Part shown: piece by piece, positions 18,856-21,637 of the stretch
Layout of the letters: each line of letters opens with the position of its first letter
Position numbering within the stretch: the first letter of the stretch is position 1
Origin: a virus
DNA: 31,377 nucleotides
Reading direction: 5' to 3' (one strand)
IMG/VR virus record: IMGVR_UViG_3300005515_000632
Span: 1 to 31,377 of that record
Program-made: the position numbers and the translations under genes
Notes under the pieces: generated by a model
What the model was told of the DNA's origin: nothing
Databases searched by the model: none
What the model saw: the letters and a program-made list of their open reading frames with translations, nothing else

Positions 18856-19283
18856 GCTACGCCACCCTCGAGCAACTGATCGAGAAGCTGGGCGAGCCGA
18901 CGCTCGTCCAGCTCACCGATCGCGACCAGCCGGCGACGGGCGCGATCGTCGTTGGGCGCGTGGACCGCGCGCTCGCCGACACCGACGCGGTGATCGACGG
19001 CTATCTGGCCGGCCGGTACCGGTTGCCGATCGAGGGCGGCGTGCCGGACCTGCTCGTGGACCTCGCGCTGGCGATCGCCTCGTACAAGCTCCACCCGTTC
19101 ACGCCCGACGGGAAGATCAAGGACGACTATGGCGACGCGATCGCCGCGCTGGGCAAGATCGCGACCGGCACGATCCGCCTGCAGATCGCCGGCCTCGAGC
19201 CGACCTCGTCGGGGTCGAGCGGGGTGCAGGCGATCGACCGCGAGCGTCCGCTGACGCCTGAATCCATGCGGGGCTTCATCTGA
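18852..19283 (+). CDS. DUF1320 protein (Mu gp36-like head-tail connector)
   Basis: GTG 18852 (GTGA overlap) gives 143 residues starting MSYATLEQLIEKLGEPTLVQ, the typical DUF1320 opening. Other family parts are VDRALADTDAVIDGYLAGRY, RLPIEGGVPDLLVDLALAIA, SYKLHPFTPDGKIKDDYGDA and IAALGKIATGTIRL. The helical fold resembles adaptor proteins that bind below the portal. A start further upstream is open but would add a segment outside the family. The stop overlaps the next ATG as TGATG. Confidence 0.9.
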   Translation: MSYATLEQLIEKLGEPTLVQLTDRDQPATGAIVVGRVDRALADTDAVIDGYLAGRYRLPIEGGVPDLLVDLALAIASYKLHPFTPDGKIKDDYGDAIAALGKIATGTIRLQIAGLEPTSSGSSGVQAIDRERPLTPESMRGFI

Positions 19284-19720
19284 TGCTCGCCGATCTCGCC
19301 GAGCAGCGGATCGTCGCCAGGCTGCCGGAGCTTGTCGGCAGCATCGGCACCGCGCTCCAGTTCTCGGAAGCGATGCGCACGGGCTCCCTCGGGCAGCGTG
19401 ACCTGTCCGCCTACCTGCTGCCGCTCGGCATGCGGGGCGGCGCGGCGACCGCGGCCACCGGGCTGTTCCGTCAGTCGATCGACCGGTTCCTCGGCGTCGT
19501 TCTGGTGAAGCGCGCGATCGCCGATCCGCTCGGCGCCAAGGTAGCGGACGCCTTCATGCCGCTGATCGACGGCGTGGTCGAGGCGATCGCCGGCTGGGCG
19601 CCCGAGGACGCTGTCGGCGTCTTCAAGCTCGAGCGCGGCGAGCTCGTCAGCCTCTCGGGCGGCGTCGCGACCTTCCAGCTCGATTTCAGTCTCGATGATC
19701 AACTGAGGATCCAGTCATGA
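19283..19720 (+). CDS. Putative tail terminator / gp37-like protein
   Basis: The 145-residue product starts at ATG 19283 within TGATG. It reads as an alpha/beta protein: LADLAEQRIVARLPELVGSI, a strand-rich middle (LSAYLLPLGMRGG), TGLFRQSIDRFLGVVLVKRA, then a C-terminal strand pair (GGVATFQLDFSLDDQLRI). This matches the pattern of tail terminator proteins, in which a terminal strand holds a temperature-like FxLxF segment, and the place after the gp36-like adaptor fits. It would cap the tail tube and join it to the head. The stop overlaps the next ATG. Confidence 0.7.
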   Translation: MLADLAEQRIVARLPELVGSIGTALQFSEAMRTGSLGQRDLSAYLLPLGMRGGAATAATGLFRQSIDRFLGVVLVKRAIADPLGAKVADAFMPLIDGVVEAIAGWAPEDAVGVFKLERGELVSLSGGVATFQLDFSLDDQLRIQS

Positions 19721-19956: not shown

Positions 19957-20928
19957 ATGCCCGCACCCATTTTCTGGAAATCGAAGAGCGCGCTGGTCAA
20001 ACCCGAGGTCACCTACGGTGTAGATCCCGCGCCGACCGCTGCCAACGCCGTGCTGCTGACCGACGTCCAGTTCCAGCCGATGGAGGGCGAGGACGTCACC
20101 CGCAACGTCGAGCTGCCGTACATGGGCGCTCAGGAGCAGATCGCGGCCGGGCTGCGCGCGGTGCTGACCGGATCGTTCGAGCTTGTCGGCTCGGGTGAGA
20201 CCGGGGTGGCGCCGGGCTGGAGCGCGCTGATCCGCGCGATGGGCGTGGCCGAGGTCATCACCCCGGACGCGGTTCCCGGCGATGGCACCGGCACGGTCGA
20301 ATATTCACCAGTCAGCAGCGCCCACGAAAGCGTCGCGATCTATTTCCAGATCGGCCCGACCCGCTACGTCATGCTAGGCTGCATGGGCACCGGCGAGCTC
20401 ACGGTGAACGCGCAGGGCATCCCTGTCGTGCGCGGCACCTGGACGGGTCTGTTCACGCTACCGGCCGACCAGGCACCGCCCGTCGGCATCGATCTTTCGA
20501 ACTTCATCCCGCCCAAGGTCGCGAGCAAGGCGAACACGCCGGTGTTCAAGATCAATGCGCTCGATTTCGTGATGCGCAGCTTCACGTTGAACCTGGGCAA
20601 CGACGTCCAGCCGCGCATGCTCGTCGGCGTGGAGCGGATCCTGATCGTCGATCGGGCCGAGTCTATCTCGACCACCGTCGAGGCGGTGCCGATGGCGACG
20701 TACAATCCGTACGACAAGGCGCGCTCGCCCAAGCCGCGCATGCCGATCCTGCTGCAGCACGACAACGATGCCGGCCGGCGTGTGACGATCTCGGTGCCGA
20801 CCGCGGTCCAGAACCGGCCCTCGGGCATCGAAAATCAGCAGGGCGTCGTCGAATGGCCGCTCTCGTTCACGCCGCTGCCCGATGCCGGCAACGACCAGTG
20901 GAAGATCACGCTCGGCGTGGTCGCCTAA
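19957..20928 (+). CDS. Tail tube protein (siphovirus type)
   Basis: The 323-residue product begins MPAPIFWKSKSALVKPEVTY, GVDPAPTAANAVLLTDVQFQ, PMEGEDVTRNVELPYMGAQE, the common opening of siphovirus tube proteins. It continues with beta-rich stretches (RGTWTGLFTLPADQA, INALDFVMRSFTLNLGNDVQ, SGIENQQGVVEWPLSFTPLP). It would stack in hexameric rings to form the tail tube. In Mu the corresponding place is held by the sheath L and tube M. No sheath gene is present here, so the tail is non-contractile. Its ATG follows the previous TAA immediately, with GTCAGGAGG upstream at 19943-19951. Confidence 0.85.
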   Translation: MPAPIFWKSKSALVKPEVTYGVDPAPTAANAVLLTDVQFQPMEGEDVTRNVELPYMGAQEQIAAGLRAVLTGSFELVGSGETGVAPGWSALIRAMGVAEVITPDAVPGDGTGTVEYSPVSSAHESVAIYFQIGPTRYVMLGCMGTGELTVNAQGIPVVRGTWTGLFTLPADQAPPVGIDLSNFIPPKVASKANTPVFKINALDFVMRSFTLNLGNDVQPRMLVGVERILIVDRAESISTTVEAVPMATYNPYDKARSPKPRMPILLQHDNDAGRRVTISVPTAVQNRPSGIENQQGVVEWPLSFTPLPDAGNDQWKITLGVVA

Positions 20929-20945
20929 CCCCGGAGATCCCCGTC

Positions 20946-21275
20946 ATGTTCATCGTCACCGACAATCCGACGTTCACCCACACGGTCGAGGCACATGTGC
21001 CGACCGATGGCGGCTTCGAGATCCAGAAGTTCAAGGTCACTTACAATCTCGTCGCTGGCGAGGAGTTCGAGGCGTTCGATCTGTCGACGCGCGAAGGATC
21101 CAGCGACCTCCTGCGCAAGGTGATCGCCTCGATCGGCGATCTCGTCGACGCCGAGCGCAACCCGGTGCCCTACTCGGATGCCATTCGCGAGAAGGTGATC
21201 CGGCTGCCTTGGGCCCGTCGCGCGATCGTCAAAGGCTATTTCGACGCGGTCAACAAGGAAGCGGAGGGAAACTGA
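20946..21275 (+). CDS. Tail assembly chaperone, G-type
   Basis: The 109-residue product starts at ATG 20946. It has a beta-rich N-terminal half (MFIVTDNPTFTHTVEAHVPT, FEIQKFKVTYNLVAGEEFEA) and a helical C-terminal half ending in RAIVKGYFDAVNKEAEGN, as in many phage tail chaperones that coat the tape measure protein before tube assembly. The last codons, GGA AAC TGA, contain the slippery heptamer GGGAAAC. Most ribosomes stop here to make this short form. A fraction is expected to slip back one base and make a longer G-T fusion that continues to 21637. Confidence 0.88.
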   Translation: MFIVTDNPTFTHTVEAHVPTDGGFEIQKFKVTYNLVAGEEFEAFDLSTREGSSDLLRKVIASIGDLVDAERNPVPYSDAIREKVIRLPWARRAIVKGYFDAVNKEAEGN

Positions 21276-21307
21276 AGGCCGCCGCCCGCGCATGGGCGAC
21301 GGGCGGC
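21266..21307 (+). promoter_or_regulatory. -1 ribosomal frameshift signal (slippery site plus hairpin)
   Basis: GGGAAAC at 21266-21272 is read in the zero frame as G GGA AAC, the X XXY YYZ form, directly before TGA. After a -1 slip it reads GGG AAA CTG. Eight bases downstream, GCCGCCC (21281-21287) pairs perfectly with GGGCGGC (21301-21307) across a 13-base loop. Spacing and stem fit a stimulatory hairpin. The lambda G-T site is GGGAAAG. Tail chaperone genes commonly use this device. Confidence 0.9.
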
Positions 21308-21637
21308 ACTTCGGATCTGGGCGAGGCGATCGCGGACGCGGAGGAAATGGGGCTGCCGGGGCTGGCGGCGATGCTCAAGGACGCCTCGTCGAAGGAAAGC
21401 GGGTTCAAGGTGTGGCGGCGAAACTGGGACATCGTGCTGGCCTTCCTCTCGGTCGCGACGCAGTGGCGCGCGATCGCGCGGGGCCTCGACGGCGCCGTCT
21501 ACTGGATGGGGCTCGACTATACCGCCGCGCTCGCGGATCTGCGCGCGTCAGGCTTCGCCGTCACGCCCAAGCTCTGGGCGGGCGTGAAGACCATGGAGCG
21601 AGCCGCGCGCGACGCGCTGAATGGCGTGGCCGGGTGA
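21272..21637 (+). CDS. T-part of the frameshifted tail assembly chaperone (DUF1799-like)
   Basis: This frame has no ATG, GTG or TTG near its start and is in the -1 frame relative to the preceding gene. It is therefore most likely made only as the C-terminal part of a fusion (109 + about 121 residues, about 230 in total). The sequence FKVWRRNWDIVLAFLSVATQ, WRAIARGLDGAVYWMGLDYT matches DUF1799, a family often found in this place. The T-part would link the chaperone to the tape measure protein encoded next. A low-level CTG start at 21272 behind GGAGGG is conceivable but poorly spaced. Confidence 0.85.
   Translation: MKAAARAWATGGTSDLGEAIADAEEMGLPGLAAMLKDASSKESGFKVWRRNWDIVLAFLSVATQWRAIARGLDGAVYWMGLDYTAALADLRASGFAVTPKLWAGVKTMERAARDALNGVAG

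Follow-up and report, generated by a model that had tools for sequence, protein, structure and literature searches.

The window analyzed here, a virus record of 31,377 bases, carries two open frames, G and T, that meet within its tail module, and this junction raises the question of whether they are translated as separate proteins or joined by a change of reading frame. The window encodes a Mu-type transposase (Pfam DDE_2 and Mu DNA-binding domains) and a Mu-like gpT capsid protein (Pfam), and its tail module has the siphovirus-type order of tail terminator, tail tube, G frame, T frame, and a 1204-aa tape-measure-like ORF, the last with no Pfam match. The G/T pair is placed between the tail tube and tape-measure-like genes, as is expected of the G/GT type. 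Judging from the sequence and its relatives, a programmed −1 ribosomal frameshift at 21266–21272 almost certainly fuses G and T. The features of the locus are collected in Table 1.

Table 1. Features of the G/T locus, in window positions, with the evidence for each.
Feature	Position	Strand	Evidence
Tail tube protein gene, upstream	19957..20928	+	Pfam Phage_tube_2, E 3e-12
G-type tail assembly chaperone, 109 aa, 0 frame, from ATG 20946, ending E-G-N-stop	20946..21275	+	Translation, PHROG 569, position, relatives, AlphaFold model
Predicted slippery heptamer, read G GGA AAC	21266..21272	+	Sequence and conservation in relatives
0-frame stop TGA adjoining the heptamer	21273..21275	+	Kept in relatives; AGR/CTA codon choice
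Putative stimulatory hairpin, 8-bp stem (21281-21288 / 21300-21307), 11-nt loop	21281..21307	+	Fold prediction, codon shuffles
T-part, −1 frame, 121 aa + stop, DUF1799; predicted 230-aa GT fusion	21272..21637	+	Pfam PF08809, conserved LKAAARAWA-like start
Tape measure protein gene, downstream, 1204 aa	21645..25259	+	Directly after T; weak PHROG 4211 tape-measure match, E 0.0024

The identity of both proteins is consistent with a tail chaperone pair. T, which the preliminary description had called DUF1799-like, indeed matched Pfam DUF1799 (E 6.6e-10; 39.5 bits against a curated cut-off of 26), as did the T-part of 30 of 30 members tested in a first alignment. The G protein matched PHROG 569 (E 1e-14) and had no match in Pfam, including Phage_TAC_4 (PF08748). 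G proteins of seven relatives sharing the gene pair matched Phage_TAC_4, 'Phage tail assembly chaperone', with E-values down to 1e-43, and PHROG 569, which takes in the window G and all 29 aligned members, is common to the window G and two of these seven. In a viral predicted-structure library, an AlphaFold model of G (pLDDT 91) matched the tape measure chaperones of Ec_L1, Solomon, and Scapp, all phages, and its fold matches include 210- and 236-residue forms, lengths that suit frameshift fusions. This library alone gave a match, and for G; fold searches of the PDB with G and T returned nothing significant, and sequence searches of solved structures with both proteins found no phage relative.

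At the junction, the gene frame reads GAG GGA AAC TGA; GGGAAAC lies in the X XXY YYZ register directly before the stop of G, exactly as first described. GGGAAAC occurs only once in the window, counting both strands, where about 2 copies are expected by chance, and a lone copy is, by itself, unremarkable. The combination of elements is what stands out, because this is the only GGGAAAC or AAAAAAC copy in the window with a stop directly after it, it is in the right register, and it is followed by a rightly placed 8-bp stem; in this window of 68% GC, a perfect 8-bp stem begins 5–9 nt after a random position at 0.3% of positions. The −1 frame is open from CTG at 21272 to 21634, ending with TGA at 21635–21637. 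The claim that this frame lacks a normal start also held, the nearest ATG, GTG, or TTG upstream lying 21 codons before the T start and the first one downstream being the ATG at T codon 26. Upstream, this frame stays open across almost the whole of G, in an ORF of 251 codons (20882–21637) with an ATG at 20882, which could mislead gene callers.

Relatives of T were drawn from viral contigs, bacterial genomes, and annotated phages, and the end of the G gene and the heptamer were located by script at each locus. The resulting 77 loci, the window included, are less than 90% identical to each other in T; they extend from prophages in Alphaproteobacteria to phages infecting Pseudomonas, Acinetobacter, Xanthomonas, Stenotrophomonas, Serratia, Vibrio, and Pantoea. 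In one scan, the pattern began with the first T residue and so slightly favoured position 7 of the heptamer in the loci concerned, a bias of which the phage tblastn matches are free. The G protein alone, used as a query in viral contigs, returned no relatives; G diverges faster than T. The end of G carries GGGAAAC in 66 of the 77 loci, AAAAAAC in 10, and neither in one, Klebsiella phage Diencephalon. Measured against the refuting conditions named in the preliminary description, this is the single locus of the 77 with no XXXAAAC at the junction, and in none of the relatives does the second frame open with an ATG, GTG, or TTG of its own. A frameshift joining tail chaperone genes, as originally proposed, is therefore supported by a heptamer in 76 of 77 loci, by the Phage_TAC_4 matches of related G proteins, and by the chaperone-like G model.

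The heptamer might be kept only for the C-terminal Gly-Asn of G, whose asparagine is invariant and whose glycine is nearly so, with no slippage taking place. Codon choice makes this exceedingly unlikely: the glycine codon is GGA in 66 of 66 cases, against 7% of glycine codons in these genes, and the preceding base is always G before GGA and always A before AAA, without exception. Moreover, Gly-Asn changes to Lys-Asn only in the form AAAAAAC, an exchange that retains XXXAAAC and is expected under selection for slippage, while selection on the protein sequence does not predict it. The frame change could also be real and arise from slippage of the transcribing polymerase, for which the run of six A in the 10 AAAAAAC relatives would be suited. 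As the other 66 have no long homopolymer, and selected downstream folding with an adjoining stop fits ribosomal slippage, we regard transcriptional slippage as having hardly any chance of being the explanation.

The remaining alternative is that T is a separate protein and no fusion is made, translation restarting at the CTG that overlaps the stop (CTGA, a weak start codon) or at an ATG inside T, roughly 25 codons from its beginning. In the window, a shorter T could begin at the ATG at codon 26, which has GGAGG upstream, only 2 nt away, and annotators of RcapMu, Thiobacimonas phage P1, and others have started T internally. Nevertheless, the junction triplet in the 76 relatives with a heptamer is CTG in 67, CTA in 8, and CTC in one, the latter two being codons without known start use; ATG, GTG, or TTG is absent from the head of T in every relative, although one change from CTG would suffice. 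An ATG, GTG, or TTG preceded by a Shine-Dalgarno core of 4 nt or more is lacking in 31 of the 76; among the relatives with such a codon, all except one have the first at codon 34 or beyond. In nearly all relatives, T begins with L-(K/R/T/I/E) followed by roughly AAARAWA, coded straight from the last base of the heptamer with varying synonymous codons, L being invariant and A4, A5, R6, and W8 nearly so. This LKAAARAWA-like segment is conserved as protein upstream of the internal starts and precedes any plausible start codon, and it is therefore most simply read by ribosomes arriving from G. Judged by this conservation, the −1 frame is protein-coding from the heptamer onward. A separate T also leaves the exchange between GGG and AAA without explanation, and overall we consider it very unlikely, if somewhat less so than the two previous alternatives.

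The stop codon after the heptamer appears to be under selection as well. Of the 76 non-redundant loci with a heptamer, 75 have the stop directly adjoining it. An arginine at the second T position is encoded by AGR in 22 of 23 cases, compared with 10% AGR in the rest of T, and the opening leucine codon is CTA in 10% of cases against a background of 3%; through these choices in the −1 frame, the adjoining 0-frame stop is preserved. The near-universal stop is thus apparently selected at the nucleotide level, which is the modest addition made here. A statement of an abutting-stop rule for the DUF1799 family was not found in the literature searched; Xu et al. 2004 (Mol Cell), outside that literature, could contain one. 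Two loci, L083 (L083:1866-1899) and L057 (L057:1995-2106; analyzed separately, not among the 77), have kept the heptamer and lost the stop, lengthening G by 9 and 35 codons, respectively, which suggests a tighter constraint on the heptamer than on the stop. These loci are natural tests of the role of the stop.

It is conceivable, though in our view rather doubtful, that the stop contributes actively to the signal as a −1 'shifty stop', in which case frameshifting would hinge on a UGA decoded slowly in the A site. Such a reading fits because the stop is conserved at the nucleotide level. AAC is a weaker slip codon than AAG in Escherichia coli at A_AAA_AAN (PMC5009743). On the other side, L083 and L057 lack the stop and yet keep the heptamer, which argues that the stop is not essential. 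If the stop did act in this way, the ratio of G to GT would respond to release factor 2. The conserved adjoining stop poses a simple, testable question on −1 slippage at AAC in bacteria.

The hairpin downstream had been described as a 7-bp GC stem starting 8 bases after the heptamer; its start was placed correctly, and the perfect stem proved to be 8 bp, pairing GCCGCCCG (21281–21288) with CGGGCGGC (21300–21307) after a spacer of 8 nt. The predicted fold adds three further inner pairs beyond a bulge. This fold is only mildly unusual with respect to dinucleotide shuffles (z −1.6) and more so with respect to synonymous codon shuffles (z −2.8). Across the 77 loci, the mean MFE of the 52-nt segment that opens 3 nt past the heptamer is −26.3 kcal/mol compared with −22.2 kcal/mol for codon-shuffled T (mean z −1.2), a comparison that treats relatives as independent and hence overstates significance, giving p-values that are too small. 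In windows of 45 nt, the excess at these loci peaks for a start 3 nt past the heptamer (mean z −1.1), declines at 9 nt, and has disappeared at 15 nt and beyond, and the first stable pairing in the relatives usually starts 3–8 nt after the heptamer. Downstream structure thus appears to be selected for, its shape not.

In the comparison of relatives suggested with the preliminary description, the heptamer is conserved and the specific hairpin is not. Of the pairs in the window stem, two are disrupted in L002 and three in L003, the two closest relatives, and none of these losses is compensated; the downstream region of L002 is not more structured than its shuffles (z +1.1). We therefore rejected the exact window hairpin as a conserved element, since it is not kept in the two closest relatives and stems differ between relatives. 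An upstream Shine-Dalgarno-like stimulator is an optional element of such signals, known for dnaX; across the relatives, we found no clear excess of anti-Shine-Dalgarno pairing over codon shuffles, leaving unused the window's own values, whose G slice was probably not frame-aligned. An Rfam scan of the window gave no family at threshold.

From these patterns, we infer programmed −1 frameshifting at this site, including the slippage itself, its efficiency, and the roles of both products. Most ribosomes would read G and stop at the TGA at 21273, yielding the chaperone of 109 aa. A minority, carrying tRNA-Gly and tRNA-Asn at GGA and AAC, respectively, would slip one base back onto GGG AAA, delayed by the hairpin 8 nt downstream and probably also by the stop in the next position, and would continue in the −1 frame from the CTG to give the GT fusion. 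By analogy with lambda gpG and gpGT, the tape measure protein would be coated by many copies of G and few of GT, with the T-part bringing in the tail tube protein, and both forms would depart ahead of tail completion. If so, an annotation of G and T as two separate genes would be wrong.

The closest precedents are the junctions between genes 49 and 50 of Rhodobacter phage RcapMu (NC_016165) and between genes 47 and 48 of RcWaterboi, likewise transposable phages with non-contractile tails and the same gene order, which share with the window a GGGAAAC-TGA junction and a DUF1799 second frame; their T is only 32% identical to the window T, and the downstream fold is different. The signal elements had been pointed out here as present in a transposable phage, which they are, but they are not new for one, as the RcapMu record already marks a 'potential −1 frameshift' (misc_feature) at this junction. 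T1-like and related chaperones (Silvanus, Smarc2, Solomon, and Scapp) also have a DUF1799-related T; joined frameshift products are annotated in Silvanus and Smarc2, both with AAAAAAC adjoining the stop where the window has GGGAAAC, and Solomon and Scapp are those matched by the window G fold. We know of no transposable phage among these four.

The lambda G/GT genes, which precede the tape measure gene, give two forms of tail chaperone by −1 slippage, as proposed here, at the slippery site GGGAAAG; to our knowledge, lambda T belongs to a different family from the window T. In lambda, gpG and gpGT both bind the tape measure protein, the tail shaft protein is the partner of the T domain, and the short product outnumbers the long one at a ratio of about 30 to 1 (PMC5009743). 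Frameshifting of 6–7% was measured for two HK97-like tail chaperone sites (PMC3711429). The same two heptamers as in the window family are found in large prolate-head siphophages, AAAAAAC in the phiCbK group of Caulobacter phages and GGGAAAC in Colossus (PMC3556154), and their chaperone is only remotely similar to the window G, the fold match to Colossus being weak (E 0.5). Phage Mu also has a chaperone frameshift in a Mu-like transposable phage; it differs in its contractile tail and in using −2 frameshifting (PMC5009743). A −1 site T TTT TTC has been proposed for D3112-like transposable phages (PMC4378225), and G_GGA_AAC is listed for the archaeal virus HCTV-1 (PMC5009743).

The window site is another case of the well-known lambda G/GT-type −1 frameshift in tail assembly chaperones, of modest importance; given the RcapMu mark and the published GGGAAAC and AAAAAAC sites, its novelty is only that of another member. 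Gene callers split or mis-start the G and T genes. With the family rule, namely GGGAAAC or AAAAAAC, a stop at once, and then a leucine-initial DUF1799 frame, annotators could reliably connect G with GT in many proteobacterial phages and prophages.

Some minor observations concern single relatives and public annotation. Diencephalon (L111) has the same G and DUF1799 frames, with CAAAAGCCT-TAA at the junction and CAAAAGCCTTAA in place of XXXAAAC (L111:1040-1090), and may slip at A_AAG one codon earlier. In Pseudomonas phage PS-1 (L105:1526-2664), genes for a partition ATPase and an anti-repressor come after the DUF1799 gene, in the place of a tape measure gene. PHROG 569 (G) and PHROG 680 (T) both carry the name 'tail length tape measure protein', and under PHROG 209 the tail terminator (19283–19720) is called 'portal protein'; such names appear in public annotations, for example those of RC1 and RS1.
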